DNA of 64,000 bases, taken from NCBI RefSeq assembly GCF_900114455.1, contig NZ_FOTC01000009.1:62001-126000 (forward strand), read 5' to 3'. The stretch comes from Halogranum rubrum. GTDB lineage: Archaea > Halobacteriota > Halobacteria > Halobacteriales > Haloferacaceae. The notes under the pieces were generated by a model, which worked only from the letters and a program-made list of their open reading frames with translations, did no database searches and was not told the origin of the DNA. Each line of letters begins with the position of its first letter. Positions within the stretch are counted from its first letter, which is position 1. The translations under genes and the position numbers were made by a program. Below, one piece after another: positions 33,990 to 61,816 of the stretch.

Positions 33990-34385
33990 TCAGTTCAGCT
34001 TTCGGTACTCACGCGCGTCTTCGGCCGCTTCGACCACCGACTCCAGGGTCGCCTTCGACCCGGCGGCGTTGACGGCGGCGTTCAGCGTCCCTTCCAGAAT
34101 CGGCGCGTCGGCGATACGGACGTCGTCGTCCTCCGCCTCCAGCATCTCGATGGCGAGTTCGGTGTTCATCACCGCGCTGCCGAGGTCCACGAGGACGACG
34201 ACGCCGTCGTCGTCGCGGGCCTGCTCGATAGCGTCCTGAATCCGGGGGGCGCTCGTCCCGATACTGCCGTCTTCGTCGCCACCGGCGGCGACGATTTCGG
34301 CCTCCGCGCTCCCCATCTCGGCGGCGACGTCGCAGATGCCTTCGGCGGCCTTCGCGCTGTGGGAGACGACGACGAGTCCGACCAT
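33990..34385 (-). CDS. dhaM: Dihydroxyacetone kinase phosphotransfer subunit (EIIA-type)
   Basis: 131 residues, a single EIIA-Man-type domain, unlike the multi-domain E. coli DhaM. The phosphorylatable His is H9 (VVVSHSAKAAEG) and the LVDLGSAVMNTE segment is conserved. It rephosphorylates ADP held in DhaL, taking phosphate from HPr. Last gene of dhaK-dhaL-dhaM: it shares one nucleotide with the dhaL stop (34385). Confidence 0.93.
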   Translation of the reverse strand: MVGLVVVSHSAKAAEGICDVAAEMGSAEAEIVAAGGDEDGSIGTSAPRIQDAIEQARDDDGVVVLVDLGSAVMNTELAIEMLEAEDDDVRIADAPILEGTLNAAVNAAGSKATLESVVEAAEDAREYRKLN

Positions 34386-35083
34386 TATTCGGCCTCCCGT
34401 TCGACGGCCTCGGGTGACGTCGCGTCGACGTCTGTCTCACCTTCGAGATGCTCGCTCGCGACGTCCAGCAGTTCCTCCATGATGAACAGCGTGCTCGTCG
34501 CGCCGGGGTCTTGATGGCCGACGGAGCGCCAGTCGAGATAGGAGGCACGGCCCTTCTTCGCCTTCAGGGGAACGGTGAAGTTGACACCGCGTTCGGCGGC
34601 GTCGACGGCCTTCGCCAGTGCGGTCAGCGGCGGTAGGTCGTCCTGCTCGATAGACTTCTTGAACGTGTGGACAGCGGGAGTGAGCGCGTCGACCATCGTC
34701 TTCGAACCAATCTGTGCGTCGCCGCGGTCCTGTACCTTATCGAGGTAGGCTTCGGCGAAGGCGACGCTGGTCTCGGCGGTGATGCCGCCTTCCAACTCTT
34801 GGCTGGCGAACATGATAGAGCCACCGTAGAGCGGCCCGGACGCGCCGCCGACTTCGGAGATGAGCGTCGTACCGACCGTCTTGACGACGTCGTCGATGTC
34901 ACCGTCTAACTCGTCGGTCTTCTCGGCGACCGCGCCGAATCCACGACTCATGTTCGCGCCGTGGTCGGCGTCGCCGATCGCCGAGTCGAGGTCGGTGAGG
35001 TACGACTTCTCCGCCGAGAGGCGCTCGGCGACGGCGTCGATGGCGGCCAAAACCGCTTCTCGCTGTGTCTCCGTATCTGCCAT
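34385..35083 (-). CDS. dhaL: Dihydroxyacetone kinase ADP-binding subunit
   Basis: 232 residues. The Mg/nucleotide-binding aspartates are in LDSAIGDADHGANMSRGF, and GGASGPLYGG is the DhaL signature. In PTS-type kinases DhaL holds ADP as a cofactor that DhaM rephosphorylates. It has its own TATA-like element about 25-35 nt upstream (acaaacgctttc on the minus strand), in addition to any read-through from dhaK 75 nt upstream. Confidence 0.95.
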   Translation of the reverse strand: MADTETQREAVLAAIDAVAERLSAEKSYLTDLDSAIGDADHGANMSRGFGAVAEKTDELDGDIDDVVKTVGTTLISEVGGASGPLYGGSIMFASQELEGGITAETSVAFAEAYLDKVQDRGDAQIGSKTMVDALTPAVHTFKKSIEQDDLPPLTALAKAVDAAERGVNFTVPLKAKKGRASYLDWRSVGHQDPGATSTLFIMEELLDVASEHLEGETDVDATSPEAVEREAE

Positions 35084-35103
35084 ACGCTACAGGTGTCGTG
35101 AAA

Positions 35104-35119
35104 AGTGAAAGCGTTTGTG
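35104..35119 (-). promoter_or_regulatory. Promoter element upstream of dhaL
   Basis: On the minus strand the sequence acaaacgctttcact lies 22-36 nt before the dhaL ATG. Its core acaaacgcttt is identical to the element upstream of dhaK (36186-36196). Position fits a BRE/TATA pair; a shared regulator site cannot be excluded. Confidence 0.45.
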
Positions 35120-35158
35120 TCCCGCGGCGACGCGTCAGCGCACCAGCGTGTCAACGTA

Positions 35159-36154
35159 TCAGCGTTTCAGTGCGAGTGTGTCGGCCGGGGCGTCGAGGAG
35201 TTCTTTCAACTCGTCGTCGACGGCGCAGACGGTGACCGAACAGCCCATCATGTCCAGCGAGGTCATGTAGTCGCCGACCCACGCGTCGTGGACCTGTAGG
35301 TCGTGGTCGTCCATGAGTTCTTGCAGACGCTTGTTCACGACGAACAGTTCCATCTCGGGCGTGCCGCCCATCCCGTTGACGATGGTGACGACTTCCTGGC
35401 CCGAATCGAGGTCGAGGTCGTCGAGCACTTTCTCCGTCAGATGCTCGGTGATCTCGTCGGCGCTCATCATGTCCGCACGCTGGGTGCCGGGTTCACCGTG
35501 AATCCCGATACCGAGTTCTAACTCGTCCTCGCCGAGGTCGAACGTCGGTTCACCCTTCTCCGGGGTGACACAGGAGGTGAGCGCCATCCCCATCGTGCCG
35601 ACGTTGTCGACGACTTTCTCGGCGACGCGCTTGACCTCGGCCAACTCCGCGCCTTCGGCCGCCTTCGCGCCAGCGACTTTGTGGACGAGAATCGTCCCGC
35701 AGACCCCGCGTCGACCGGAGGTGTAGAGCGAGTCCTCGACGGCGACGTCGTCGTTGACGACGACCTGTTCGACCTCGACGTCGTCCATCGCGGCCATCTC
35801 ACCGGCCGTCTCGAAGTTCATCACGTCGCCCTCGTAGTTCTTGACGACACAGAGGACGCCTTCGCCCGCGTCGCAGGCTTTGACCATCTCGTTCAACTGG
35901 TCTGCCGTCGGCGAGGTGAAGACCTGTCCTGCGGCCGCGCCGTCGAGCATCCCGTCGCCGATGTAGCCCGCGTGTGTCGGTTCGTGGCCGCTCCCCCCGC
36001 CGGAGACGACACCAACCTTTCCGTCGACCGGTGCATCTGCGCGTACGAGGACTTCGTACCCGTCGAGACGGCGGAGTCGGTCGGGGTAGGCAGCGACCAT
36101 CCCGTCGAGCATCTCGTCGACCACGTCTGCCGGGTCGTTGATGAGTTTCTTCAT
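35159..36154 (-). CDS. dhaK: Dihydroxyacetone kinase substrate-binding subunit
   Basis: 331 residues. His219 in GIGIHGEPG is the residue that binds dihydroxyacetone covalently as a hemiaminal (E. coli His218); His57 (GGGSGHEPTH) and Asp110 (KNYEGDVMNF) match the catalytic pair. With DhaL and DhaM it makes dihydroxyacetone phosphate using PTS phosphate. ATG at 36154 chosen (MKKLINDPADVV); the frame is open to 36223. First gene of the dhaKLM cluster. Confidence 0.95.
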   Translation of the reverse strand: MKKLINDPADVVDEMLDGMVAAYPDRLRRLDGYEVLVRADAPVDGKVGVVSGGGSGHEPTHAGYIGDGMLDGAAAGQVFTSPTADQLNEMVKACDAGEGVLCVVKNYEGDVMNFETAGEMAAMDDVEVEQVVVNDDVAVEDSLYTSGRRGVCGTILVHKVAGAKAAEGAELAEVKRVAEKVVDNVGTMGMALTSCVTPEKGEPTFDLGEDELELGIGIHGEPGTQRADMMSADEITEHLTEKVLDDLDLDSGQEVVTIVNGMGGTPEMELFVVNKRLQELMDDHDLQVHDAWVGDYMTSLDMMGCSVTVCAVDDELKELLDAPADTLALKR

Positions 36155-36181
36155 GGTTCGTGATACACCTAGACGTGCCGA

Positions 36182-36197
36182 CGCAAAAGCGTTTGTA
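36182..36197 (-). promoter_or_regulatory. Promoter element upstream of dhaK
   Basis: Minus-strand ctacaaacgcttttgc lies about 28-43 nt before the dhaK ATG and shares acaaacgcttt with the dhaL element. Spacing fits a core promoter with a short leader. Confidence 0.45.
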
Positions 36198-36308
36198 GAG
36201 CGGTGTGTCGGATCGGCTGACACTCGCTCGGGCAGGGGAATCGAACGGTCGTCGTCGACGAGTCCGAGAGGCCACCCGATTTACGTGCTCGCCCGCGAAG
36301 GGTCGGCC

Positions 36309-39646: not shown

Positions 39647-39802
39647 ATGGTACTACACAACACGGAACTCGACCCGTACAGCCCCGAAGAGCGGTACTAC
39701 GAGTGTCTCTCTTGTGGAACCCGACGGACGAGCACAGAACACGTCGCGGCCTGTGCAGAGTGTGATGGAGAGGTCCGAAACATCGCCGTCGCTCGCGAAT
39801 AG
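39647..39802 (+). CDS. Rubrerythrin-like zinc-ribbon small protein
   Basis: 51 residues. Two CxxC pairs (CLSCGTR and CAECDGE), spaced by 14 residues, form a rubredoxin-like or zinc ribbon. From memory this matches haloarchaeal proteins annotated as rubrerythrin-like domain (DUF7129). Role unknown; such ribbons often bind zinc or iron. Confidence 0.8.
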   Translation: MVLHNTELDPYSPEERYYECLSCGTRRTSTEHVAACAECDGEVRNIAVARE

Positions 39803-39829: not shown

Positions 39830-40798
39830 TCAGTACTCGATGTCGGCCGCGGTGTAGCGGTCGACGACGAGCACGAGCGCCGCACCGACGACGCCCGCGG
39901 CGAAGAAGATGCCGACGAGTTCTGCCGTCCAGAGACTGTAGTCGACGACGTCGCCGCCGCCGAGATGTCGCGTCGCCTCGCTGACCGGCGCGCGGAGCGC
40001 ACCGAGGATGAGGCTGACGAGGAACGCGAGCGTCGCCTCGCGGTAGTGTTCGAGCGCCCACTTGACCGCGTGGGCGATAGTGAACAGGCCGACGACGGCC
40101 CCCGAGATGAACGCGACGACGACGGTGCCGTCCGCGACGAGCGACGACACCGACGCCTGTCCGAGAGCGACGTTGAGGAGGCCATCGGTGAACTCCTTCA
40201 GCGTCGTCACCATGAACTCGTACTTCCCGAGGATGAGCAAGAGCAGCGACCCCGAGATACCGGGGAGAATCATCGCACTCACGGCGACTGCGCCCGCGAG
40301 GACGACGAAGACGAGGCTATCGTCGAGTGCAGCAGAAGCGGGTCCGGAGACGAAGAACGCGAGTGCGAACCCGGTGACTGCGGCGGCGATGCGCTTCGGC
40401 GTGTCGAGTTCGACCTCGGTGTAGAGGACGATAGCCGACGCCAGGATGAGACCGGAGAAGAACCCGAAGGTGAGGACGGGCACCTCCTCGATGGCCCACT
40501 CCAGCGCGCGCGTCATGGCGATGACGGCGGACATGATACCCGCACCGAGCACGAGCAGGAACACGCCGTCCATCTCGATGAACGCGTCGTAGGCTTCCCG
40601 CTGGTGACCCGGGCGAACGCCGCCGAGGATGGTCAAGATGCGGTCGACGTCGATGCCGGTGACCGCGCCGATGAGGCGCTCGTAGATGCCCGTGATGAGT
40701 GCGATGGTCCCTCCCGAGACGCCGGGGACGGCGTCTGCAGAGCCCATACAGAGGCCCTTGAGGTAGACCGCCAGCCACGAGCGGAAGTCAGTCGACAT
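39830..40798 (-). CDS. DUF368 (PopT-type) membrane protein, candidate polyprenyl-phosphate translocase
   Basis: 322 residues with about eight to ten hydrophobic helices and the DUF368 N-terminal signature LKGLCMGSADAVPGVSGGTI; a second ILPGISGSLLLLILGKYE half-repeat follows. Bacterial DUF368 proteins (PopT) were recently shown to return undecaprenyl phosphate across the membrane. Here the gene shares one nucleotide with the aglB stop (TGATG), so translation is coupled. A role in flipping dolichyl phosphate back after AglB transfer is a strong inference, not established in archaea. Confidence 0.85.
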   Translation of the reverse strand: MSTDFRSWLAVYLKGLCMGSADAVPGVSGGTIALITGIYERLIGAVTGIDVDRILTILGGVRPGHQREAYDAFIEMDGVFLLVLGAGIMSAVIAMTRALEWAIEEVPVLTFGFFSGLILASAIVLYTEVELDTPKRIAAAVTGFALAFFVSGPASAALDDSLVFVVLAGAVAVSAMILPGISGSLLLLILGKYEFMVTTLKEFTDGLLNVALGQASVSSLVADGTVVVAFISGAVVGLFTIAHAVKWALEHYREATLAFLVSLILGALRAPVSEATRHLGGGDVVDYSLWTAELVGIFFAAGVVGAALVLVVDRYTAADIEY

Positions 40799-43700
40799 CA
40801 GTTGTGTGTGGCAGCGAGCGGTTCGGAGACGAGCACGCCGACCGAGTCGGCCGTCGACGATGCCGACAGCGACTCGGTAGTGTTGGCAGACGCGTTCGTC
40901 GCGGTGTCGTTGCCTTCACTCGTCGTGGCCGTGGCGTCGTCGGACGCCGTCTCGTTCGTCGTCGCGTTCTGGTTCTGGTTCTGGTTGCCGAGCACCTGCT
41001 CTTCGAGTTGGACCTGCGCGGCGGCGTCGTCCTCGCCGAGCACCTGTGCCTCGGTGACGTCCGCCGACCCGCTGTAGGCGACGATAGAGCCGTTGTCGGC
41101 GGCGGTCAGTCCGGTGCTGAACGAGTACGAACTGTTCGCACGGACGCTGACGTTGGTGTGGCCGTTGTCCGGGCCGAACTCGTCGTAGCCGGTCGTTGAG
41201 TACGGGACCGTCATCGTGAACTCGCCGTCCTCGTTCGTCTCTGCCTGCTGGGTGTAGACGAACGTGGAGTCCTGCGAGGGGACGTTCATCTGGACGCGAG
41301 CGGTCACCGTCGCGTTCGCCGGTGCACCGCTTCCTTCGACGGTGGCACCGTCGACGCGTTCGAACGTCTTGACCCACGCCGGACCGGACCCTTGTTGGGT
41401 CGCAGCACTGGACTCACTGGCCTTCACGAGTCGGTAGTGTTCGAGTGCGGGCACGCGCTCCGACGGGATGTTGCCGAGGCCGCCGACCTGTGCCGTGCCG
41501 TCTTCGGCGACGAACTGGCGGGCGGCGCTCATGTTCTGGAACTGCTTGACGGCGCTCTCGTTACCCGAGGGCAGTGTCCGAATGTTGAGCGACTCGCCCG
41601 TGTTCGGGTTCGTCACCGTCTGCATCTCGTAGTCGAGGACGATTGGCTGCGGACTCACGGAACTACCGTGGTACTGGTACAGCCTGACCATCATGCTGTC
41701 GTAGTAGCGCTGCTCGTTGACTGTCGAGACGCCCTGATAGCCCTGCTGTTGATTGCCCTGATACAGGGTGTAGTAGAAGTCGCTCTGTGAGACGTTGTCG
41801 GCGTCGTAGAAGACGATGGGTGCGCCGAACTTCTGTCCCGGCGTCGCCATCTGGTAGTCGACCATCACGTAGCGGGTCTGGTTACCCTCGTCCGCTTGCT
41901 GGTCGTCCATGCCGGTCAGGACGTCCTGTGCGTCACCCTCACTCGGTGCGAGGAGGAAGTTCGCGGCAGTGTTCGCACCCTGCTGGAACGGGTTGGCGTT
42001 CGGGATACGTTCACCTTGGACCGTAATCCAGTGACCGTAGTCCCACCACGACATGACGCCGTACGCGCCTTCGGGGTAGTCGTGGTTACCCTGTCCTTCC
42101 TGATACGTGCCGTAGTAGTCCAACTGCTGGGCGTTTCCGGCACCGCCGTAGTTGCCCTCGGCGGGCGTGTTGTTCTGCATCCAGGTGAGACTGTCGTCCC
42201 ACTGCGTAATTGCGCCCGGACCGTGGTTCTGCGAGCGCTCCCACGCGGCACCGCTCGCGGCACCGAGTCCGGCCAGCGGTGCGAAGACGACGAGGAGGAT
42301 GGCGGCGAGCGTCATGACCTGCCAGCCACCGATGCCGGAGTCGCCGGACCGGTCCGTGACCGACCCGAGGTCGAGTGCTTGGACCGTCTCTGCGACCAGG
42401 AAGCCGGTCAGGACGGCGACGACGACGGCGAGGTAGTAGTTGAATCGAATCTGCGTGAACGCCGCGGCGGTGATGAACGCCGCCCAGACGACGACGAACA
42501 ACTGCTCGGCGTCGTATCGCGCCAATAGCGTCGCACCCACGATGAGTGCCGTCACGATGACGAGGCCGAGCAGTTGCGACGTCACCGGAATGTTCCCGAA
42601 CGCACCGTCGAGGGGTTCGGCGACGGCGCTGAGAAGACCCGGCGCGAGGAAGATGAGTGCGATGACGGCGAAACTGATGCCGACGTAGGCGTACTCACGC
42701 GTCTCACCCTTGCGGAGCAGCGGGCGGATGAGAATCGAGGCGACGGCGACGATGCCGAGGAACAGCGTCAGGCCGTACTCGCGGAGAATCTGGTCCGTCG
42801 CCGACGCGCCGCCGAGGAGCGCCGGGTCGAGGAACGGTCGCGCTTCGGCGATGGTCCGCGTCTGCGCGCCGGCGTTGAAGCCGACGGTTCGGAGGAGGTT
42901 CGTCCGAATCGTCCCGAACGCGTCGGGCGCGACGACGGCGAGTGCGCCGAGACCGACGAGGATGAGCCCGAAGATTGCGACGGGGAACAGCGTCAGCGAG
43001 AGGTCACGTGACTCCCACTGTCGGGCGAGGAAGGCGACGAAGACGCTGCCGAGTGCGACGGCGAACGCGAGTCCCGGTTGGATGAGCGAGAAGCGCGTCG
43101 CCGTGAAGCCGATGGTGTCGACTTGGAGGAGCATGAGCAGACCGGTGACGGTCATCGACACCGCGCCCGCGAAGGCGATGTGTTCGGGACTGCCGCCGTT
43201 GACCGTGTCGCTCACCTGCTTGAGGACGATGAACCCGCCGACGACACCGACGAGGAGGACGCCCGGCGGCCACACCCACATGTAGAGGGCGGTGGCGACA
43301 CCGGCGAGGGCGCCCCAGAGGAGGGGCGTTCGGAGAGCGTCGAGGTCACGGTCGGAGACGAGTTCCCAGACGGGTTTCTCGCGCTCTGCGATGCCGAACG
43401 CGACGAGGAGGGCGAAGACGGCGAACGCCTGAAACAGCGGCTCGACCCCGTTGTGGTCGGCGACGCCGACGAGCGTTCGCTGGAGGAACGTGCCGGGGAG
43501 CAGCATCAAGACGACGGCGCTGACGACGCCGGCGAGTCGGCCGCCGAGACGCTTGCCGATGAGGTAGACCGGAATCGCGGTCAGCGCACCGAAGACGGCT
43601 GGTGCGACGAGGAGGGTCTTCGCGACGAGCGCCTCACTCGGACTGCCGAGACCGACGATCAGTGCGACTGTCGCGACCAGTTGGTCGTACAGCGTCCCGA

Positions 43701-43995
43701 ACTGTCCCGTACTCGTCCCGAACGGGAAGTAGGTCCACGGGTCGAACGGGATAGTGCTCGGCCAGTTCCGGACGGTGTACTGGACTTCTCGAAGGTGATA
43801 CCACGCGTCGTTCCCCGAAAAGAGCACCTCGCCGTCGACGATGAATCTCCCGTAGGGGATGAGACGCACGTACAACATGACCGCCACCACGGCGAGGAGG
43901 GCGGGGACGTGATACTTCTCTCGAAGGGTGTCGACGAGCGACCCGTCCGTGTTCAGGACGGAGCGTTCGTCGGCACTCTCGCTACGCTCACTCAT
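40798..43995 (-). CDS. aglB: Dolichyl-(di)phosphate oligosaccharide-protein glycotransferase AglB
   Basis: 1065 residues, STT3 family. The N-terminal half has about thirteen hydrophobic helices; the first external loop keeps SGNDAWYHLREVQY (acidic metal-binding part). The catalytic signature WWDYG lies near residue 650 (GVMSWWDYGHW). The extracellular C-terminal domain ends in a Thr/Asn/Ala-rich tail. It moves the glycan from the dolichol carrier to Asn of S-layer and other exported proteins. ATG 43995 chosen; a TATA element (cttatg) sits 26-31 nt upstream. Coupled to the DUF368 gene. Confidence 0.96.
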   Translation of the reverse strand: MSERSESADERSVLNTDGSLVDTLREKYHVPALLAVVAVMLYVRLIPYGRFIVDGEVLFSGNDAWYHLREVQYTVRNWPSTIPFDPWTYFPFGTSTGQFGTLYDQLVATVALIVGLGSPSEALVAKTLLVAPAVFGALTAIPVYLIGKRLGGRLAGVVSAVVLMLLPGTFLQRTLVGVADHNGVEPLFQAFAVFALLVAFGIAEREKPVWELVSDRDLDALRTPLLWGALAGVATALYMWVWPPGVLLVGVVGGFIVLKQVSDTVNGGSPEHIAFAGAVSMTVTGLLMLLQVDTIGFTATRFSLIQPGLAFAVALGSVFVAFLARQWESRDLSLTLFPVAIFGLILVGLGALAVVAPDAFGTIRTNLLRTVGFNAGAQTRTIAEARPFLDPALLGGASATDQILREYGLTLFLGIVAVASILIRPLLRKGETREYAYVGISFAVIALIFLAPGLLSAVAEPLDGAFGNIPVTSQLLGLVIVTALIVGATLLARYDAEQLFVVVWAAFITAAAFTQIRFNYYLAVVVAVLTGFLVAETVQALDLGSVTDRSGDSGIGGWQVMTLAAILLVVFAPLAGLGAASGAAWERSQNHGPGAITQWDDSLTWMQNNTPAEGNYGGAGNAQQLDYYGTYQEGQGNHDYPEGAYGVMSWWDYGHWITVQGERIPNANPFQQGANTAANFLLAPSEGDAQDVLTGMDDQQADEGNQTRYVMVDYQMATPGQKFGAPIVFYDADNVSQSDFYYTLYQGNQQQGYQGVSTVNEQRYYDSMMVRLYQYHGSSVSPQPIVLDYEMQTVTNPNTGESLNIRTLPSGNESAVKQFQNMSAARQFVAEDGTAQVGGLGNIPSERVPALEHYRLVKASESSAATQQGSGPAWVKTFERVDGATVEGSGAPANATVTARVQMNVPSQDSTFVYTQQAETNEDGEFTMTVPYSTTGYDEFGPDNGHTNVSVRANSSYSFSTGLTAADNGSIVAYSGSADVTEAQVLGEDDAAAQVQLEEQVLGNQNQNQNATTNETASDDATATTSEGNDTATNASANTTESLSASSTADSVGVLVSEPLAATHN

Positions 43996-44142: not shown

Positions 44143-45045
44143 TCACTCGTCGAGACAGAACAGTGCCCGTCCTCGCTCCGAGAGTGCCTCGCGGTCTACA
44201 GCAACATCGTACTCGGCCTCCAACTCGGCGAGCGGCTTTCGAGCGTCGGCGATGAGTCCCTCGACGGTTCCGCGCCGCTCCAAGCCCGGCGGCGTCTCGA
44301 AGCGCGGCAACTCGCGCGCCGCGCGGTACGCCAGCGGGTACGTTACGAGGTCGTAGAGACTCTTGGCCACTCGACCAACGGGACCGCGCTCCTCTTCGAG
44401 GATGTGGTACCGCGGATGGCTCACGCTCCACGCGAGACACGAGAGGAAGTCGATGCCAACCTGCGCGTCGGCGACCTTGCCGCTCCAGTCGCGCCGGAGG
44501 TGGTCTCGAAACGACTTCTCGTAGCCGATCTGCTCGCGAATCTGGTCGTGTTCCAGCCACAGGACGGCCCGCGCGGCGAACAGTCGTCGCCACAGGTCGC
44601 GGTCCTCGGAACTGGCGAGGTTTCGGTACGGAATCGCCTGATACAGCGACTTCGGAGCCATGTTGATACCCGTCCCCGAGAGCAGGAACTCGCGGTCGAT
44701 ACCGGCCTCGAAGTCGTGGTAGATGGAGACGAAGTCCTCGATGACTGGTTCGTACTCGTCGTCGACGTCCAACTGCGTGAGGACGTACTCGCCCTCGCAC
44801 TCCTCGATAGACCGTTGGCGGTCCGCGCCCAGTCGGCGCTCGGGGTCGGGGTCGAGCGTGAACACGCGAAATCGGTCGTCTTCGGCTTCGAGACGGCGGA
44901 GTTCGATACCCGTCCCGTCTGTCGACCCGCCGTCGACGACGACGAACTCGAAGTCGTCGCCGACTTGGTCGAGCATGCTTCGGAGGGAGGGGACGACTGT
45001 CTCGACCATGTTGTAGCTACAGATTGCGATGCTGTACCGCGGCAT
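44143..45045 (-). CDS. Family 2 glycosyltransferase
   Basis: 300 residues, a GT-A fold enzyme. Strand 1 region SIAICSYNMVETV, nucleotide-sugar site VVVDGGSTDGT and DVDDEYEP as the DxD-type metal site are visible. No membrane helix. It lacks the usual C-terminal transmembrane pair of dolichol-phosphate transferases, so it may add an internal sugar to the lipid-linked glycan. ATG 45045 gives the family start; a TATA-like gtttatcacc lies about 30 nt upstream. Next to aglB. Confidence 0.87.
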   Translation of the reverse strand: MPRYSIAICSYNMVETVVPSLRSMLDQVGDDFEFVVVDGGSTDGTGIELRRLEAEDDRFRVFTLDPDPERRLGADRQRSIEECEGEYVLTQLDVDDEYEPVIEDFVSIYHDFEAGIDREFLLSGTGINMAPKSLYQAIPYRNLASSEDRDLWRRLFAARAVLWLEHDQIREQIGYEKSFRDHLRRDWSGKVADAQVGIDFLSCLAWSVSHPRYHILEEERGPVGRVAKSLYDLVTYPLAYRAARELPRFETPPGLERRGTVEGLIADARKPLAELEAEYDVAVDREALSERGRALFCLDE

Positions 45046-45225
45046 GAGTGATGAAGACTGTCGGCGCGGTGATAAACGGGTCGGGTTCTCTGTTACGACG
45101 ACCGATTGATCGAGCGTTCTGGCGCGTGGCTTCGCGTCGCTCGTCGGCGCGAGACACGCACGCGAGGGATAGAGCACCGGAAGGAACGAAGTGACTGAGG
45201 AGCGGAATCGGCTGGGGAGGACGTG

Positions 45226-45362
45226 GCTGTTGCGGGTGGGACTGAAAGGGGACGCGCTATCGACGAAGGCAGACGACGCAAGCACCGCAGGAACGAGCGT
45301 AGCGAGTGACGAGGAGCACAGCGAGTCTCCCGAGTCGATAGCGCGTGGGCTTTCGAGGGGTT
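45226..45362. repeat. Dispersed-repeat-like element with long inverted arms
   Basis: Non-coding stretch with gaaag-ggg-acgcgctatcgac at 45244-45264 and its near-complement at 45334-45355: a perfect 12-bp core (cgcgctatcgac / gtcgatagcgcg) flanked by further pairing gaaag/ctttc. The 69-nt interior has the quasi-repetitive gaacgagcgtagcgagtgacgag pattern often found between haloarchaeal genes. It resembles repeats I recall from many haloarchaeal genomes. The whole gap 45046-45407 holds no gene. Confidence 0.55.
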
Positions 45363-45407
45363 CAAGAATTCACTACTGAGAGCAGTTGAAGCGACAAAAC
45401 AACCGAC

Positions 45408-46904
45408 TCACTCCGCGTAGCCCAAGTCCCGCAACCGCTGACGCGTCGAGTCGTCGACGTCGTCGACGTCTGTTCCGGACTCACGAACTCCAGCGTCCGA
45501 AAACCGCCCAAAGACCTCACCGACTCGCCCACCATCACCTCGTTCGCGCACGTACGACGTGTGCGAGTCGAGCACTCGAACGCCCACTGACTCGTCTTCC
45601 CAGTCGGCGTACTTCGACACCGCGCCGTCGACGTCTCCTTCTCTCTCCGCCTCGAACACTGCCCGCATCTCGCCGCGGAACTGCCAGAGTTCGTCGGCGT
45701 CACAGTACTCCCGCGCGAGTTTCATGTTCGGTTCGGTCAACCCAGCAGAGGAGGACACAATCGGCCCCTCGGCGAACCCTCCTTGAGCATCCTCGCCATC
45801 TCCATCCAGCACCGCGCGGACGACGTCGGGGAAGTTGGTCAACGACGCAGGCTCTGACACTACTTCACCTTCGCGCTGTCCCGGATGCTTCACGACCAGC
45901 GGGACGTGCAACTGCGACTCGTGGATTCCTTCGACGTGGCCGACCAACCGCGTCCCTTTCAGCCGCGACACCTCACCGAAGCCCTCGCCGTGGTCGCTCG
46001 TGACCACGAGCAGGGTGTCGTCCAACTCGCCGCGGCGTTCGAGCACGTCGACGATGCGGCGCAACTGGGCGTCCATCTGGTGGATAGCCCCGTCGTAGAG
46101 CGCCTCGAACGCCCGGCACTGCCACCACGGGGCGTCGCCAGCGTGGAACGACCAGACGTGTTTCTCCAAGTCGGCCTGAATCTTCTTCAGACGCTTGCCA
46201 CCCCACCGGTCGTGTTCCGGCGCGGGTTCGTAGGGCGCGTGGCCGTCCATGAGGTTGATGCAGGCCGCCCACTGCTCGTCTCGCTCGCTTTGCCAGTCGA
46301 CGAACCGGTCGACGTAGGCGCTCGCCGGGGCCGACGCCATCAGCCAATCGGGAACGAGATTTGGGTAGTCCCACGCGAGTTTCGTCCCCACGCCGTTCAG
46401 GAGCGACTTCACCGGATGGTCGCCGTCCAGACAGCGTCTGACGTACTCGGCGTACTGGCCCTGTCCCTCGGCGGCCGTGAACTCCGTCGGGTTCGCCGCT
46501 TCCGGGAAGAGAACGTTCTGCGCGCCAGATACCTCGTCGAAGCCAGCGTCGAGACCCACGTCCATTATCGTCAGCCACGGGTTCTCCGAGAAGACGGCCG
46601 TCTCGTAGCCCGATTCCTGTAGCTCCTCGAAAATCGTGTTCCCGGCAGCCAGTCTGTGTTTCGGCTCCGTCACGCCGTGTTCGGCGACGTGCAGACCGGT
46701 GAAGATGCTCGTGTGACTCGGTAGACTCCACGACCCGGGCGAGCGCGCCTGCTCGTACCGCGTCGCCGACGCGGCAAAGTCGTCGAGGAACGGCGTCGTC
46801 TCGTTCGCGTGGCCGTGCAGGGAGGTGTTGCTCGCGCGGACGCTGTCGAGGACGACGAGTAGGACGTTCGGATTCATCGGACGCTTCGCACTCCTCGAAC
46901 TCAT
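45408..46904 (-). CDS. Sulfatase / alkaline-phosphatase superfamily protein
   Basis: 498 residues. N-terminal metal Asp in NVLLVVLDSVRA, the nucleophile region is GSWSLPSHTSIFTG (Ser, not Cys), and the distal metal site is VVTSDHGEGFGE. No signal peptide is seen. The protein ends RLRDLGYAE, a C-terminal motif shared with three relatives in this window. Start at 46904 gives an ATGA overlap with the upstream superfamily gene; ATG 46877 is an alternative. Could hydrolyse or transfer a sulfate or phosphate ester on a glycan; specificity is open. Confidence 0.85.
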   Translation of the reverse strand: MSSRSAKRPMNPNVLLVVLDSVRASNTSLHGHANETTPFLDDFAASATRYEQARSPGSWSLPSHTSIFTGLHVAEHGVTEPKHRLAAGNTIFEELQESGYETAVFSENPWLTIMDVGLDAGFDEVSGAQNVLFPEAANPTEFTAAEGQGQYAEYVRRCLDGDHPVKSLLNGVGTKLAWDYPNLVPDWLMASAPASAYVDRFVDWQSERDEQWAACINLMDGHAPYEPAPEHDRWGGKRLKKIQADLEKHVWSFHAGDAPWWQCRAFEALYDGAIHQMDAQLRRIVDVLERRGELDDTLLVVTSDHGEGFGEVSRLKGTRLVGHVEGIHESQLHVPLVVKHPGQREGEVVSEPASLTNFPDVVRAVLDGDGEDAQGGFAEGPIVSSSAGLTEPNMKLAREYCDADELWQFRGEMRAVFEAEREGDVDGAVSKYADWEDESVGVRVLDSHTSYVRERGDGGRVGEVFGRFSDAGVRESGTDVDDVDDSTRQRLRDLGYAE

Positions 46905-47887
46905 ACGTAGCCCAGGTCTGCCAGTCGGTCTTCCAGGTCGTCGGCGTCCGAGTCCGTCGTCGACTGGGTTTCACCGGTACTGATGGTCCGACGCTCGCCG
47001 ACGTCTTTGACGGCCCACGGCACCTCTACCAACTCCTTGCTCCGAATCCCCTTCGGGTGGCCGTACACCCGCAGGGGAAGCGGAAACGTCCGCTCGCCGA
47101 GCATGTTGCCGTGGTCGCTCGTGACCGCGACGCGACCTTCGACGTCGTCCAGCAGGTCCTCGACGGCGTCGAGTGCGAGCGTCAGATTGTCGCCGTAAGC
47201 CTGCCAGACGTCGTCTTTCGAGACGCGGCCCATCCACAGCGCGTCCCACGGGGTGTAGGGACGCTGGCGTTCGGTCGTGTGGTCGGGTTCGATTCGTTCC
47301 CCCGCACCCCCGTGCGTCTCACCTTCTATCTGCCACCCGGCAAAGGAGAGTTCGTGCTCGCCGATGAAGGGGTGGTGTGGCTGCATGAAGTGGACGATGA
47401 CGCGCTTCTCGGGGTACTCCTCGTGGGCGCGTTTTGCGGCGTCGACGACAGCCTCCGGGGGAACGGTCTTGCGCTCCTCGTCGAAGTCCTCCAGCCAACA
47501 CTCGACGAGTTCGTGGAAGGCGTCACCCGCCTCGCGGGAGACGTAGGGGTTCGAGGTGACGTAGACGGTGTCGCCGAAGTCGCCGCCAGCGAAGTTCTGC
47601 CGGACCCACTCGCGGGTCGTACTGCCGCGACTGGTCACCGTCCGGTAGTCGTCGTACTCGGTCAGCGGTGCTCGTTCGGCGAACAGGTCGGCACGACACG
47701 CGTCGAGGACGACGAGCGTGTCCCAGTCTTCGTCCATGACGCGGACCGACCCGTGTCGGGTCGGGTAGACGTTCGTGTGAAACGGGCCGACGAGGAACTC
47801 GAAGACGCGTTCGCGCCACCAAAACGGGTCGTCGTAGCTCTCTCGCAGGCCGTCGAGGACGTAGGAGGCGGTGTCTGTCAGACCCAT
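46901..47887 (-). CDS. Alkaline-phosphatase superfamily protein
   Basis: 328 residues. LVVLDACRADLF supplies the first metal Asp, a Ser/Thr nucleophile probably lies in SRGSTTREW, VHFMQPHHPFIG carries metal-binding His and AVTSDHGNMLGE the distal Asp-His. Ends DRLADLGYV, the same C-terminal motif as its neighbours. Shorter than typical sulfatases. Translationally coupled to the next superfamily gene by ATGA. Cytoplasmic as far as sequence shows. Confidence 0.83.
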   Translation of the reverse strand: MGLTDTASYVLDGLRESYDDPFWWRERVFEFLVGPFHTNVYPTRHGSVRVMDEDWDTLVVLDACRADLFAERAPLTEYDDYRTVTSRGSTTREWVRQNFAGGDFGDTVYVTSNPYVSREAGDAFHELVECWLEDFDEERKTVPPEAVVDAAKRAHEEYPEKRVIVHFMQPHHPFIGEHELSFAGWQIEGETHGGAGERIEPDHTTERQRPYTPWDALWMGRVSKDDVWQAYGDNLTLALDAVEDLLDDVEGRVAVTSDHGNMLGERTFPLPLRVYGHPKGIRSKELVEVPWAVKDVGERRTISTGETQSTTDSDADDLEDRLADLGYV

Positions 47888-47947
47888 CGAGACCCACTCA
47901 TTGTCCTACAGGCTTCGAGGAGAAGGTAAAAGTCTTCTATCTCTGAC

Positions 47948-49324
47948 TCATCGCCGACGGCTGAGCGGCGACCGGAGTTCCCACGCCGACCACCGGAACT
48001 CGGCGACGGCCCAGACGAAGGTAACGAAACCCATCCCGACGACGGTCAGCACGTCGCGGAAGCCGACCCACGCGGGCATGATGAAGACCACACCGTTGAC
48101 GATGAGACTCGGGACGAGTCCCTGAATGAGGTTCCACAACTGCCGCGAGGGGTTGGTGTGGCGTTGCTCCTCTTCGCCGGTCGACTCGACGGCCGCCGTG
48201 TCGCCGCGAGAGTCGAGGCCGAGTCGCTGGGCGCTCTCGCCGCCCTCGCTCTCGTCGGGCGTACTCAGACGCTCCGCCTCGTAGGGCGTGTCGATGCCGA
48301 CGCTCCAGACGACGTCGCCCGCGCGGTCGATTTCGACGACGCGGTTGCCGTTCGAGTCCGTGATCAGGGTGTGGCCGTTCGGCATCCGGTCGGCGTCGCG
48401 CGGCCACTGGAGTTCGCTGTCGGCCCACGCCCACGACGCGTTCCACCCGTCGTCGGTACGCTGGTACTCGATGACCCGCCCGTTCTCCGAGTCAGCGACG
48501 AGAACGGCCGGACCGCCCTCGGACTCGGGGATGTAGTCGGGATTGTGCTGTTCGTACAGGACGTCGTGGTCGTTCTCGCTGCCGAGCGTCCAGTTCTCCT
48601 GTAGTCCCTGCTCGGGATGGAGGAACGCGACTTGGTCTTGGTTCCGGAGACCGACCATGATGCGCCCGTCGTCCAGTCGCTCGACGTCGTTCATGTGCGT
48701 CCAGTCGTCGGGGTAGAAGCCGCCGCCCTTGATGGGGTAGTCGGCCTGCGCGTCCCACGCGAGGTCCTGCATTCCCGTCGTCGTGTTGACGACGAAGACG
48801 CGGTCCTCGGCGATGTCGGCGACGAGCAGGCGGTCGGGGCCCAGTCGGTCGACGTCGTGCCAGTCTTTGTGCGTCACGCGCTCGTAGACGTGCGTCGTCT
48901 CGCCCGTCGAGACGTTGACGCGGACGACGGCGTTGAGGATACACTCCTCTCGGGCGGCCTCGATGGGACACTCCGCGCTCGGGAGGTTCCGCGAAGCGAC
49001 GTACTCCACCGTCCGAGTAGTCCCGGGAACCGGGTCGACGTCGAAGAACTTCCGGAAGGAGTCGTTGTAGTACGCGACGGTTCCGTTCGGGTTGAACGCA
49101 GCGAGTTCGGCTTGGCTCCCCGGACGCGAGGAGGTGGTGACGACGGTCATCCCGTCGCGTTCGGCGGCGACCTGTGTCCGCTCGTCCGCCGGGAGCGACG
49201 CCTGTCGAGCGAGTTCCGCCTCGCCACCTCGGGCGGTCGAACTCAGATAGCCGTTGAGGAGAAAGCCCGACGAGACGATGAGGAGTGCCACGAAGACGAA
49301 GCGATAGGTGCGCTTGGAGGGCAT
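47948..49324 (-). CDS. Arylsulfotransferase-like beta-propeller membrane protein
   Basis: 458 residues. One N-terminal membrane helix (about 8-28), then a beta-propeller with repeats such as HDVDRLGPDRLLVAD, HMNDVERLDDGRIMVG, DADRMPNGHTLITDSNGNRV, as in the arylsulfotransferase (ASST) families, and two C-terminal helices (about 395-440). The catalytic propeller would lie outside the cell. It may move sulfate between phenolic or glycan acceptors, but activity of archaeal members is untested. TATA-like gaatttaca about 30 nt upstream. Confidence 0.78.
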   Translation of the reverse strand: MPSKRTYRFVFVALLIVSSGFLLNGYLSSTARGGEAELARQASLPADERTQVAAERDGMTVVTTSSRPGSQAELAAFNPNGTVAYYNDSFRKFFDVDPVPGTTRTVEYVASRNLPSAECPIEAAREECILNAVVRVNVSTGETTHVYERVTHKDWHDVDRLGPDRLLVADIAEDRVFVVNTTTGMQDLAWDAQADYPIKGGGFYPDDWTHMNDVERLDDGRIMVGLRNQDQVAFLHPEQGLQENWTLGSENDHDVLYEQHNPDYIPESEGGPAVLVADSENGRVIEYQRTDDGWNASWAWADSELQWPRDADRMPNGHTLITDSNGNRVVEIDRAGDVVWSVGIDTPYEAERLSTPDESEGGESAQRLGLDSRGDTAAVESTGEEEQRHTNPSRQLWNLIQGLVPSLIVNGVVFIMPAWVGFRDVLTVVGMGFVTFVWAVAEFRWSAWELRSPLSRRR

Positions 49325-49445
49325 CTACCCAACAGTTCGACCACTGCTAGTTGTAAATTCTGGTTGCCGAGATAGTGTCCATCCCGCGTCCGACCGCTCC
49401 CGGCGAACGAACCATATAACACCACGGGCGGGCGACTCCTGAGTA

Positions 49446-50345
49446 ATGACCGACACCATCGCGGTCCTCGCGCTCGACGCGGCGGACGTGCGCCTCGCCC
49501 GCGAGTGGGACTGCACGAACCTCCTCCTCGACGACCACGCGAAACTGGAGACGTACGCCCACACGCTCGACTTCCCGCGGACGATGGAGGTCTGGCCTAC
49601 CGTCGCCACCGGCCTCGGACCCGACGAACACGGCGTCGTCGGCGACGCCAACGAGTGGGACAACCCGGCGCTCCGCGCCGCAAGCAAGGTGACGCAGTAT
49701 CTCCCGCGCGAGGTTCGCTCGACGCTCGGCCGCCCGTTCCAACGTGCCGGGCAGGAACGCTCGATGGCCCAAACCGACGCGAGCCATCTGTTCGACGAGG
49801 GTGTCGTCCGCTACTGGCCCGGCATCACCCCCGCCGACCACGTCCGCGAGGCGTGGCGACTGATGGCGATGGCCAGCGGCGGTGACGTCACGGAAGAGCA
49901 GTTAAAACGCGAACTCGTCGGCTTCGCGGGCGAGGAGTTGGGGTGGCTCTCCGTCGCCAGCGAGTGGGACGTCCCCATCGCGGGCGTCCACTCCCACGTC
50001 GTCGACATCATGGGCCACACCTACGCGAACCGCGAGGGACGGTTGAAGGAGACCTACGAGTGGATAGACCGGGAAGTCGGCTACCTCCGAGAGCGCGTCG
50101 ACCGACTCGTCATCCTCTCGGACCACGGGATGCAGGTCGGTTGGCTCGACGACGCGGACCCCGGAACGCACAGTTTCGAGGCGCTCGTCTCGGCCGAGGG
50201 CGTCGACGGCCCGCTTCCGAACTCCGTCTACGACGTACGCGAGTGGCTCGAAGCGCACGTCGACGAGACAGCGACTGTGGACGACACCGCCGCCTCCTCC
50301 GATACGCCGGTCCAGCATCTCAAAGACCTCGGCTACATGGAGTAG
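49446..50345 (+). CDS. Phosphodiesterase/nucleotide-pyrophosphatase-like alkaline-phosphatase superfamily protein
   Basis: 299 residues. VLALDAADVRLA (metal Asp), MEVWPTVATGLGPDEHGV with the probable Thr nucleophile, VHSHVVDIMGH (metal ligands) and LVILSDHGMQVGW fit the type I phosphodiesterase/pyrophosphatase branch. Ends HLKDLGYME, the shared C-terminal motif. Divergent from the arylsulfotransferase-like gene; a TATA-like catataac lies about 33 nt upstream. Confidence 0.85.
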   Translation: MTDTIAVLALDAADVRLAREWDCTNLLLDDHAKLETYAHTLDFPRTMEVWPTVATGLGPDEHGVVGDANEWDNPALRAASKVTQYLPREVRSTLGRPFQRAGQERSMAQTDASHLFDEGVVRYWPGITPADHVREAWRLMAMASGGDVTEEQLKRELVGFAGEELGWLSVASEWDVPIAGVHSHVVDIMGHTYANREGRLKETYEWIDREVGYLRERVDRLVILSDHGMQVGWLDDADPGTHSFEALVSAEGVDGPLPNSVYDVREWLEAHVDETATVDDTAASSDTPVQHLKDLGYME

Positions 50346-50372
50346 CGGTCGAACAGAGAGGGACGGTCTCGC

Positions 50373-54299: not shown

Positions 54300-54398
54300 T
54301 GACGCATATTTAACAATCGTATAACGATAAGTGTATTGCAAAAAAGAATGTCTTCTTATCCAGAGAAATCGCGGGTGAGTGGTGACTCGTCCTCGGTA

Positions 54399-55265
54399 CT
54401 ATCGCCTCACGGAGGCCCACCGACCACTCGGCAGGTAGTCGGCGACTTTCGCGACACCGGTCGCGACCGACCAGAGTCGGTCGCGCACCGAGACGGGGAG
54501 GCGGCCGAGGATAGAGAAGAGTCGTCCCTGCCACCCGACGGGGTAGCGCCACTTCGGCGAGTCGGCCGTCGCCGCCTCCTGAATACGGTCTGCGACTTCT
54601 GCTGGAGTGTTCCCGGTCCGCGTGAGCAGCGGCAACCAGAACCGGAGCATCCGGTAGAGGTCGTCGTACTCGCGGCCCATCTGCCGACGGGCAGCAATCG
54701 TCGTCATCGCTGTCTCCATGAACCCCGTGCGGGTGACGCCAGGTTCGACGAGGACGACGTCGACGTCGTGCGGTCCCAACTCGACGCGCAGGCCGTCCAT
54801 CAGTCCCGTAACCGCGTCTTTGCTCGCGGTGTAGGCGCTCATCCCCGGCACCGGCCAGTGGGCGATGACGCTCCCGACGGTGACGATGCGACCCGAACTC
54901 TGCTCGCGCATCGTGGGTAGGACGGCCCGGACGACGCGGTGGACGCCGACGACGTTGACCGCGAGTCCCGCCGCCACGCTGGCCGTCGGAACGTCTTCGA
55001 ACGCGCCGGTGACGCCGACACCGGCGTTGTTGACGAGACAGTCGAGTCTCCCTGCCTCGGCGAGAATCGCCCTCACGACGCGCTCGGCTTCTCGTGGCTT
55101 GGTGACGTCGAGTTCGCGGGTCCGACAGCCGAAGTCGGTGAGTGGTGCCATCGCGTCGGTGTCGAGCCCCGTCGCGTATACGGTCCACCCGGCCTGTGCG
55201 AACCGCTCGGCTGTCGCGTAGCCGATGCCGGAGTCACAGCCAGTCACGAGGACGACCTGTTCCAT
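54399..55265 (-). CDS. Short-chain dehydrogenase/reductase
   Basis: 288 residues, classical SDR. Cofactor motif TGCDSGIG near residue 8, NNAGVG near 85, catalytic Ser in GSVIAHWP and Tyr-Lys in AYTASK (about 150-154). Asp or polar residue after strand 2 does not decide NAD from NADP by eye. The basic C-terminal extension (230-288) is longer than usual and may associate with membranes. Substrate unknown. TATA-like gtttaatcc about 27 nt upstream. Confidence 0.9.
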   Translation of the reverse strand: MEQVVLVTGCDSGIGYATAERFAQAGWTVYATGLDTDAMAPLTDFGCRTRELDVTKPREAERVVRAILAEAGRLDCLVNNAGVGVTGAFEDVPTASVAAGLAVNVVGVHRVVRAVLPTMREQSSGRIVTVGSVIAHWPVPGMSAYTASKDAVTGLMDGLRVELGPHDVDVVLVEPGVTRTGFMETAMTTIAARRQMGREYDDLYRMLRFWLPLLTRTGNTPAEVADRIQEAATADSPKWRYPVGWQGRLFSILGRLPVSVRDRLWSVATGVAKVADYLPSGRWASVRR

Positions 55266-55359
55266 CTCTCTCCCTTCGAGAGACGAGGATTAAACAGTAG
55301 GGGCAGAGACGAGCGGCGGAAAGTTGCCTAACAGTGGTGTCGTCTACCTCGGTCCGGAG

Positions 55360-56388
55360 TCAAGACGAGGATTTGAACCCGCGGAGTCGGGCGACGAGTG
55401 TCGGCGTCGCAATCGTCGTCGCGGCCGCGAGTGCCGTCCCGACGACCGTCACGACGAGCGGCGGTTCCATCACGTAGATTCCGATCCAGAGCACGGCGAT
55501 GGGAACCCCTGCGAGAATCGTCCCGCGGAGGTCGAGCGTTCGGGACGGGCGCGCGACGTACCACGCAGTGCCAGCCCCGAGTGAGGCTCCGAGCCACTGG
55601 CCTGCCTTCCAGACTTCGCCCGCCGGCGACATCGCACTCGCAACCACCGCCAAGAGACCGAGGACGACACCGAGTGCGAACACGCGGAGCGGTTCTCGAT
55701 TGCCGACGGAGGCAGCGACGGCGAAGAGGCTCAGCCCCGCGACGACACCAGCGACGATGTCGACGAAGAAGTGGACGCCGAGGACGACACGGGACGCCGT
55801 GACCAACACGACGACCACAGACCCGGCGACCCACCTGCTGGTTCGCGACCCGACGTTCAGCGTGTACGCCAGCGCGGCGACGACGGCCGTCGTTCCGAGA
55901 GCGTGCCCGCTCGGGAAGGCGTATCCGGTTCCGGTCGTGATACTCTTGAACGCTCCTCCGAGGGCAGTTGGAAGCCACTCCGGGACGGTGGCGGTACTCG
56001 CCCCGGGAGGCCGTGGAGCGACGAAGAAGTTCTTGAGCAGGTCCGTCAGCGAGAACGCACTGAACGTCACGCCGAGGACGAACGCACCGTCTCGAAGCCC
56101 CGCGACGAGTGAGCGTTCGACACCGAGGAGATAGACGAGGGTGGCGGCCATCAGGAGAAACCAGGGGTCACCGACTTGGGTGACCAACCCCGCGAGCGTC
56201 AGCACGCTCCCGAACTGTACCGAGAGCCCTTCCAAGAGGCCGAGACCACGCTCTGGAACCGCGATTTCGAACACCAACACCAGCGCGACGAGGAGAGCGA
56301 ACACGGTGGTCACGAGCCCCACGACTGCTTTCCAGTGCTGTTGTGTCCAATCGACGGAGTCGGAGTCGAAGCGTTCGCGTTGTGACAT
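55360..56388 (-). CDS. PAP2-family membrane phosphatase
   Basis: 342 residues with about nine helices. The three PAP2 motifs are present: KNFFVAPRPP (K-x6-RP), the PSGHALGTT segment and SRVVLGVHFFVD. The active site should face outside. PAP2 enzymes hydrolyse lipid phosphates, including polyprenyl pyrophosphates. In a glycosylation region it is a candidate dolichyl-pyrophosphate phosphatase, by context only. The C-terminal third adds extra helices beyond the core. Confidence 0.88.
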   Translation of the reverse strand: MSQRERFDSDSVDWTQQHWKAVVGLVTTVFALLVALVLVFEIAVPERGLGLLEGLSVQFGSVLTLAGLVTQVGDPWFLLMAATLVYLLGVERSLVAGLRDGAFVLGVTFSAFSLTDLLKNFFVAPRPPGASTATVPEWLPTALGGAFKSITTGTGYAFPSGHALGTTAVVAALAYTLNVGSRTSRWVAGSVVVVLVTASRVVLGVHFFVDIVAGVVAGLSLFAVAASVGNREPLRVFALGVVLGLLAVVASAMSPAGEVWKAGQWLGASLGAGTAWYVARPSRTLDLRGTILAGVPIAVLWIGIYVMEPPLVVTVVGTALAAATTIATPTLVARLRGFKSSS

Positions 56389-56482
56389 TGGCTAGATCTC
56401 TCTTCTGTATCCACGTCTACGCCCGTCGCCCTCTTGAAGCGTACGGGAGACCGCCCGAAGGCGACTCCACCCCGTCTCCAAG

Positions 56483-56493
56483 CGATTTATACG
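56483..56493 (+). promoter_or_regulatory. TATA-like promoter of the sulfatase-flippase operon
   Basis: gatttatacg lies 24-33 nt before the ATG at 56516, fitting a leaderless start for the two-gene unit. Confidence 0.5.
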
Positions 56494-56515
56494 CCCGACC
56501 ACCGACCCTCCGGTA

Positions 56516-57952: not shown

Positions 57953-57955
57953 CTG

Positions 57956-59407
57956 ATGAAGGAGACGCAGTCGCTCAGTATCGGTCGAGAGACGCTCCTC
58001 TCGGTCGGGTCGAAGGCCATCATGGCGGCCATCGGCTTCGGTGGCTTCCTCCTGTTCGCCAACTGGCTCGGGCCGACGGTGTGGGGTGACTACAAGACCG
58101 CCGTCGCCGCGGCGTTCGTGCTCGTGCAGGTTCCTGCCGGTGTCGGCCTCGCGCTCCGAAAGCGTGTCAGCGAAGTCGACTCGGACCCCTCGGGCTACCT
58201 CGGCGTCGGCCTCATCGTTCATCTCGGCTTCTCCGCGATGGTCGTCGCGGCCTTTCTGCTCTTGCGACCGTTCGCCGCCGACTACTTCGGGTCGGTCGAA
58301 CTCGCGTTCGGCGTCGTCGCCATCACCGTCGCACTCGGCCTGTTCGACATCACTAACCGGTTCTACGCGGGTATCGGCTACCCGGCGAAGGCCTCGTGGG
58401 TCGACGGCGCGCGGAGCGTCCTCACCTTCGGCTTCCAACTCGGGTTCGTCCTCCTGAGTCTGAGCGCGTTCGGTCTCACACTGGGCCTCGCAGTCGCGAC
58501 GCTCCTGACGGGTGTCTTCTCTCTCGTTCTCGCGAAGGTGACACCGTCGATGCCGACGGTCCACTCGGCCCAGCGCGTCTACGACTTCGCGCGGTTCAGT
58601 GTCCCCAACTCCCTGCTCAAGAACCTCTACGACAGCGCCGACGTGCTCATCGTGAAGTGGGTCGCCGGAAGTACGGCAGTCGGGTTCTACAGCGCGGGTG
58701 CCCAACTCGCCATGCCCGCGGCGATGTTCGCCGGGAGCATCCGCGACGCCCTTACGGTCAAGTCGAGCGGGCTGAGTTCGGTCGGCGAAGGCGTCCGCGC
58801 CGACCTCGCGAACGCCGTCTCCTACGCCGGTCTCATCGCTGTGCCACTCTTTTTCGGGTCGCTCGCCATGCCGACCGAGATAATCGTCACGCTCCTCTCG
58901 GGGTCGTTCCGCGGGGCCGCCCCGGCGCTCGTCGGGCTGACGCTCTATCAGCTGTTCAACGTCTATCGACTCCCGTTCGAGGCGACCATCGAGGGCACGG
59001 ACCGCCCGAACCTCATCTTCCGAGTCAACGTCGGGACGCTCCTCGTCCACCTGCCGCTGGCCGTCGTCCTCGGACTGGAGTACCAACTCGTCGGTGTCAT
59101 CACGGCAACCGTCGTCGCGGAGGCGACGCGCGTCGTCGCGTACCAGTACGTCGCGCACACCGACTACGGCGGCGTCGTGCTCACGCGCCCCATCCTCGAC
59201 CAGTTCGTCGCGGGCGCGGTGATGTGTCTCGCCGTCTTCGGCGTCGAACGGTTCGTCTTTCCCGTTACCGGCTGGCCGTGGCTCGTCGTCGACGTCGCCA
59301 TCGGCGCGGCCGTCTACTTCCTCGTGTTGCTCGCCGTGAGCCCGCACTTCCGTGAGACGCTTCGACACACCCTGCCGATGTTGGAACCGCGAGAGTCTGC
59401 GCCCTAA
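57956..59407 (+). CDS. Wzx-type polysaccharide/lipid-glycan flippase
   Basis: 483 residues with about twelve to fourteen hydrophobic helices of the MOP (RfbX/Wzx) superfamily; FSVPNSLLKNLYDSADVLIV near residue 220 is typical. Probably moves the lipid-linked glycan to the outer face for AglB, comparable with AglR of Haloferax. Its 3' end overlaps the convergent glycosyltransferase gene by 4 nt. ATG at 57956 lies 3 nt after the sulfatase stop. Confidence 0.88.
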   Translation: MKETQSLSIGRETLLSVGSKAIMAAIGFGGFLLFANWLGPTVWGDYKTAVAAAFVLVQVPAGVGLALRKRVSEVDSDPSGYLGVGLIVHLGFSAMVVAAFLLLRPFAADYFGSVELAFGVVAITVALGLFDITNRFYAGIGYPAKASWVDGARSVLTFGFQLGFVLLSLSAFGLTLGLAVATLLTGVFSLVLAKVTPSMPTVHSAQRVYDFARFSVPNSLLKNLYDSADVLIVKWVAGSTAVGFYSAGAQLAMPAAMFAGSIRDALTVKSSGLSSVGEGVRADLANAVSYAGLIAVPLFFGSLAMPTEIIVTLLSGSFRGAAPALVGLTLYQLFNVYRLPFEATIEGTDRPNLIFRVNVGTLLVHLPLAVVLGLEYQLVGVITATVVAEATRVVAYQYVAHTDYGGVVLTRPILDQFVAGAVMCLAVFGVERFVFPVTGWPWLVVDVAIGAAVYFLVLLAVSPHFRETLRHTLPMLEPRESAP

Positions 59408-61625: not shown

Positions 61626-61785
61626 GCGAGAGCGTAGGCACTACGGCCGATAAAGTCAGTGGAATGTTTCGCGTGTCCGAGGGTCTGTCGGAGCCAACAG
61701 CAGACATGGCGACGCTCGACTGGAGCGGATACTCGATTCGTACCGACAGAACAAGCCACGTCCACGAGAGTCTCTATCAGAAGCG

Positions 61786-61793
61786 CTTTTACC
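61786..61793 (+). promoter_or_regulatory. TATA-like promoter of aglJ
   Basis: cttttacc lies 24-31 nt before the ATG at 61817 and supports that start over the in-frame upstream ATGs at 61664 and 61706. Confidence 0.5.
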
Positions 61794-61816
61794 GCCGCCG
61801 CGTCCAGTTGGCGGCA

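Follow-up and report, generated by a model that had tools for sequence, protein, structure and literature searches.

The gene directly downstream of aglB in the haloarchaeon Halogranum rubrum encodes a DUF368 protein that is probably a haloarchaeal PopT-type translocase, returning dolichyl phosphate after the oligosaccharyltransferase AglB has transferred its glycan. The gene pair is located on a stretch of 64,000 nucleotides (the window; assembly GCF_900114455.1, contig NZ_FOTC01000009.1, positions 62,001 to 126,000 of the forward strand) and comprises the following features, with positions counted from the first letter of the window.

40798..43995, minus strand: aglB, oligosaccharyltransferase of the STT3 family, 1065 aa, with matches to TIGR04154, PF02516, PF22627, and PF18079 and a WWDYG motif.
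39830..40798, minus strand: DUF368 gene, 322 aa, with a match to PF04018, encoding a PopT-like candidate polyprenyl-phosphate translocase.
40796..40800, minus strand: TGATG junction, read from the sequence, with one base common to the aglB stop and the DUF368 start.

At the minus-strand junction CACACAACTGATGTCGACTGAC, the TGA of aglB and the ATG of the DUF368 gene overlap by 1 nt, the shared A; within the letters CACAACTGATGTCGACT, the A of the stop codon doubles as the first base of the DUF368 start, giving a spacing of -1 nt. The first-pass annotation of the window had placed the DUF368 start on the last base of the aglB stop, and its coordinates, strand, and overlap were all correct, as was the family identity, since the protein matches PF04018 at 221.5 bits (residues 18-270) against a curated cut-off of 26. 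This copy is the sole DUF368 gene found by a search of the genome. The identity of AglB is equally clear in the profile search (943 bits to TIGR04154, cut-off 450), and its translation contains the catalytic WWDYG motif in the context ...SWWDYGHW.... The same annotation described the two genes as fused; a protein fusion is ruled out because stop and start codons are both present, and the pair consists of two separate overlapping genes. The spacing falls within the -8 to +10 nt range used for termination-reinitiation, a process described for closely spaced genes (PMC6728339; PMC10666635), and coupling of this kind between aglB and the DUF368 gene is plausible from the spacing. In the window, a simple string check identified no Shine-Dalgarno-like motif ahead of the DUF368 start codon. 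A lone TGATG junction is weak evidence, as overlapping co-directed genes are frequent in prokaryotes (PMC6728339).

A chance junction is ruled out by conservation of the pair over many haloarchaeal families. The comparison of DUF368 neighbourhoods covered 68 haloarchaeal genomes, all from one order with the source organism and spanning 17 GTDB family codes; DUF368 was found in 65 of them and aglB in 66. Of the 65 DUF368-bearing genomes, 54, representing 13 of the 17 families, carry the two genes on one strand with DUF368 downstream of aglB. The two genes adjoin directly in 52 of these linked loci, and the other two (L083 and L085, in genomes G007 and G009) have a gene for UDP-glucose dehydrogenase (AglM family, N-glycosylation pathway) between them. 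A UDP-glucose dehydrogenase gene also adjoins DUF368 in the unlinked genome G186 (locus L129), where aglB is located elsewhere. With automated start choice, the gap between aglB and DUF368 is -8 to +10 nt in 31 of the 54 linked loci, 15 of which are overlaps, and in several of the linked genomes beyond this range an upstream in-frame start would restore it. The “direct stoichiometric coupling” proposed in the first-pass annotation was nevertheless overstated, as the gap exceeds +10 nt in 23 of the 54 loci under the same start choice. The next most conserved neighbour in the linked loci is a divergent family 2 glycosyltransferase (22/54), followed by a HAD phosphatase (15, or 16 in a separate count), while all remaining neighbours are kept in at most 13, including CutA (11), a methyltransferase (9), and the family 2 glycosyltransferase upstream of aglB (about 5). 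The link between aglB and DUF368 has outlived rearrangement of all surrounding genes. In a second collection, which carries species names, 11 of 19 haloarchaeal loci are linked, including those of Halorubrum coriense, Halolamina salifodinae, Haladaptatus salinisoli, Halorhabdus amylolytica, and Natrinema ejinorense. No description of an aglB-DUF368 operon was found in the titles and abstracts searched, which come from an incomplete library. The protein family is already known, and its conserved operon with aglB in haloarchaea is a good lead for the carrier-return step of N-glycosylation.

In a quick maximum-likelihood tree, 11 unlinked haloarchaeal DUF368 copies form one group with a support of 98 (loci L070-L072, L074-L077, L102, L119, L120, and L126), and the linked copies broadly track families. 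Two genomes (G074 and G164) have both a linked copy and a copy of the unlinked group, and four genomes of one family (f7) that lack a linked copy retain an unlinked one. Because relatives without the linked copy retain an unlinked one, nearly every aglB-bearing haloarchaeon (65/66) has at least one DUF368 gene. Non-orthologous replacement of DUF368 behind aglB in the unlinked genomes was considered and rejected, as eight such loci have no downstream gene in common.

The first-pass annotation missed the Haloferax volcanii homologue, both its complementation in Vibrio and its position beside the agl cluster. A Vibrio cholerae strain lacking VCA0040 has a growth defect under alkaline conditions, which HVO_RS12060, the DUF368 protein of H. 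volcanii, partially complements; the authors of that study suggested a relevance to dolichol phosphate (Sit et al., 2022; PMC9876793), and their main text does not mention aglB. According to the locus tags in two published papers, aglB is HVO_RS12050, and aglG, aglI, and aglF are HVO_RS12045, 12040, and 12035, within an agl cluster described as spanning aglJ to aglM. The published numbering thus places the DUF368 gene two tags past aglB. As the cluster ends in aglM, the intervening tag HVO_RS12055 is most likely aglM, which would give the gene order aglB-aglM-DUF368 as in G007.

Dolichol phosphate is the glycan carrier of haloarchaea, with outward movement by flippase-type proteins and transfer by AglB (PMC3871713; PMC11980604). 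In the mechanism that we propose, the glycan would be assembled on dolichol phosphate and flipped outwards, and AglB would transfer it to asparagine and release the spent dolichyl phosphate in the outer leaflet. Since the haloarchaeal carrier is a monophosphate, AglB would release dolichyl phosphate itself, a lipid of the PopT type, and a phosphatase step would be needless. The DUF368 protein would then bring this spent lipid back from the outer leaflet to the cytoplasmic one, where it could be loaded again, and its expression from one operon with AglB would scale carrier return with carrier release. It probably shares this task with DedA proteins. From homology and linkage, the most likely activity of the DUF368 protein is the return of dolichyl phosphate; this substrate, the inward direction, co-expression, and N-glycosylation as the main client are what we infer from the comparison.

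The AlphaFold2 model of the DUF368 protein, built with an alignment of 63 archaeal sequences, is a confidently predicted all-helical multi-pass structure (predicted local distance difference test score 92.7, predicted template modelling score 0.87). Two PGxSG motifs are invariant in this alignment, one at residues 25-29 (P25, G26, S28, and G29) and the other at residues 179-183 (P179, G180, S182, and G183). In the model, each is flanked by one long and one short helix, and the two regions may form re-entrant hairpins. No solved structure related by sequence was found, and a Foldseek search with the model returned no match at E ≤ 0.001. VIA-align gave middling Z-scores, the best being 8.9 to BbZIP (160 residues at 4.4 Å). 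The NCBIfam PopT equivalogs NF052563 and NF052564 match at 82 and 198 bits, both under the 400-bit cut-off, and by these profile scores the protein is a member of the same Pfam family as bacterial PopT, yet of a different subfamily.

HVO_RS12060 is placed in the DUF368/PopT family together with the bacterial proteins VCA0040 of V. cholerae and SAOUHSC_00846 of Staphylococcus aureus (PMC9876793, which cites Roney and Rudner, 2022, for the family). The window protein shares the Pfam family and the multi-pass membrane character of the bacterial proteins, whereas it is expected to act on dolichyl phosphate in place of undecaprenyl phosphate, its client would be N-glycosylation rather than peptidoglycan synthesis, and the haloarchaeal gene is linked to aglB. 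The first-pass annotation took translocation of undecaprenyl phosphate by bacterial PopT as shown. Undecaprenyl phosphate does accumulate at the outer leaflet in bacteria without DedA and DUF368 proteins, and transport by bacterial PopT is deduced from carrier exposure in mutants and from genetics, not from reconstitution. No direct transport assay for any DUF368 protein was found in the literature searched, and a 2026 study of the DedA protein PA4029 still called for direct reconstitution (PMC12893004). DedA proteins (UptA, YghB, and PA4029; PF09335) are proposed to do the same job, the return of C55 phosphate; unlike them, the window protein has no PF09335 match in the profile search, and no DedA gene was recognised beside aglB in the loci compared. 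The two families tend to alternate in bacteria (PMC10127716). In line with that report, among 157 genomes of Halobacteriota outside the haloarchaea, DedA occurs in 9 of 31 with DUF368 versus 64 of 126 without, a weak anticorrelation (Fisher p = 0.04, uncorrected for relatedness). Other membrane proteins of the pathway, AglR and Agl15 of H. volcanii and Agl29 of Halobacterium salinarum, also handle dolichol-phosphate lipids; Agl15 and Agl29 are termed flippases, while AglR is credited only with a part in delivery (PMC3871713; PMC11980604). These proteins act on the loaded carrier in the outward direction, in contrast to the proposed return of the empty carrier by the DUF368 protein, a step for which no assigned protein was found in the literature searched.

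Several observations weigh against a role of DUF368 in returning the carrier used by AglB, or narrow its reach. Outside the haloarchaea, tblastn searches with a haloarchaeal AglB query, which a very divergent AglB could escape, revealed no linkage of DUF368 to aglB, neither in other Halobacteriota (0 of 31 loci) nor in Methanobacteriota (0 of 20); for 11 of the other Halobacteriota genomes, Pfam STT3 coordinates place the two genes far apart or on different contigs. The contrast with the haloarchaea (54/65 versus 0/31) has a Fisher p of 3e-16, uncorrected for relatedness. STT3 is found in 150 of the 157 non-haloarchaeal Halobacteriota genomes and DUF368 in 31, and AglB can therefore function without a general need for DUF368; across the whole Halobacteriota sample (STT3 in 190/197 and DUF368 in 70/197), DUF368 is for the same reason not a universal partner of AglB. 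The neighbourhood survey proposed in the first-pass annotation thus bears out the association within the haloarchaea, both in co-occurrence and in linkage, but not the generality across archaea that it had claimed. In Methanobacteriota, DUF368 is abundant (104/120 genomes) with no aglB linkage detected at the 20 loci compared, which points to a general polyprenyl-phosphate role. Many Methanobacteriota make pseudomurein on a C55 carrier, and this fits such a role. Even among the haloarchaea, one near-complete genome (G033, locus L137) has aglB and lacks DUF368, and each of the 40 haloarchaeal genomes in the phylum sample has DedA proteins. Complementation of the Vibrio mutant was only partial, and no biochemical or genetic test of the role of DUF368 in any archaeon was found in the literature searched. 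The source genome itself has four DedA (PF09335) matches separate from the DUF368 gene. The DUF368 protein is accordingly not the only candidate for the return step, contrary to the impression given by the first-pass annotation, and because DedA proteins co-occur, a single DUF368 deletion may give a mild or conditional phenotype. Its standing as a candidate is upheld, with family, overlap, and haloarchaeal linkage in agreement.

Some side observations were made at these loci. G033 represents a natural DUF368 knock-out. In the other Halobacteriota (loci L038-L068), genes for an NAD-dependent sugar epimerase and a phosphoglycerate-mutase-like protein are each found near DUF368 at 23 of the 31 loci, typically on the opposite strand; the identity of the epimerase was confirmed. 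No conserved glycan-gene neighbour was recognised at the 20 loci of Methanobacteriota (G226-G348), where DUF368 is a possible recycler of the pseudomurein carrier.

A broader function would be that of a general polyprenyl-phosphate translocase serving all dolichyl-phosphate pathways (AglB, AglD/AglS mannose transfer, and other surface glycans), with aglB as a mere constant anchor of the glycan island. The DUF368 genes of methanogens without aglB linkage, the unlinked haloarchaeal copies, the second glycan of H. volcanii that is attached without AglB (PMC3871713), and the several polymers served by undecaprenyl phosphate recycling in bacteria all speak for this, and we regard it as unlikely though not negligible, because DUF368 is retained beside aglB far above other island genes and the -8 to +10 nt spacing in most linked loci suggests more than a shared location. 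At the opposite extreme, AglB and the DUF368 protein might form a dedicated physical module in which the AglB active site passes the empty dolichyl phosphate on to the translocase and the lipid never joins the membrane pool, an arrangement that we consider doubtful.

The spacing could also be read as a sign that the DUF368 protein is a subunit or chaperone of the AglB complex, translationally coupled for co-assembly and with no transport role. Gene pairs at -8 to +10 nt in H. volcanii are indeed enriched for subunits of heteromeric complexes, 45.2% compared to 5.6% of widely spaced pairs (PMC10666635). Unlinked or distant DUF368 copies are common, though, and the H. volcanii homologue functions in Vibrio, a host that lacks haloarchaeal AglB. 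AglB, moreover, acts as a single-subunit enzyme, and a subunit or chaperone role is very improbable. We give equally little weight to a transporter of another lipid or ion for salt or pH adaptation, whose link to aglB would have arisen by chance and been kept by vertical descent. DUF368 is enriched in halophiles and its phenotype depends on sodium and alkalinity (Sit et al., 2022; PMC9876793), but vertical descent by itself failed to keep the other neighbours of the pair, from the HAD phosphatase and CutA to the methyltransferase and the upstream family 2 glycosyltransferase.

The window contains a surface-glycan island (44143-62473) beside and upstream of aglB, with family 2 and family 4 glycosyltransferases, a PAP2 phosphatase, a Wzx-type flippase candidate, several sulfatase/phosphodiesterase-like proteins, an arylsulfotransferase-like protein, and a giant heparinase II/III-like open reading frame (1322 aa). 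Three of its genes are listed here.

44143..45285, minus strand: family 2 glycosyltransferase upstream of aglB (PF00535), kept in about 5 loci.
55360..56388, minus strand: PAP2 phosphatase of the same glycan island (PF01569, 55.6 bits), a possible carrier-pyrophosphatase.
57956..59407, plus strand: Wzx-type flippase candidate (PF01943, 49.9 bits), with a putative role in outward transport.

The source genome also has one BacA/UppP. Convergent with the DUF368 gene is a small cysteine-rich, zinc-ribbon-like open reading frame of about 50 aa (39647-39802, plus strand), and farther downstream (33990-36223, minus strand) are apparent dihydroxyacetone kinase-type genes (DhaM/DhaL/DhaK-like), named by sequence appearance only.

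In archaeal N-glycosylation, the glycosyltransferases, outward flippases, and transferase have been assigned, and the DUF368 protein is a candidate for the remaining gap, the return of the carrier. If the AglB-DUF368 module proves true, it would be, to our knowledge, the first assigned carrier-return step of archaeal protein N-glycosylation. The proposed role in carrier return would also widen the PopT family from undecaprenyl to dolichyl phosphate. Conservation of the aglB-DUF368 operon and the complementation data that exist for the H. volcanii homologue make the question testable in a standard laboratory strain.

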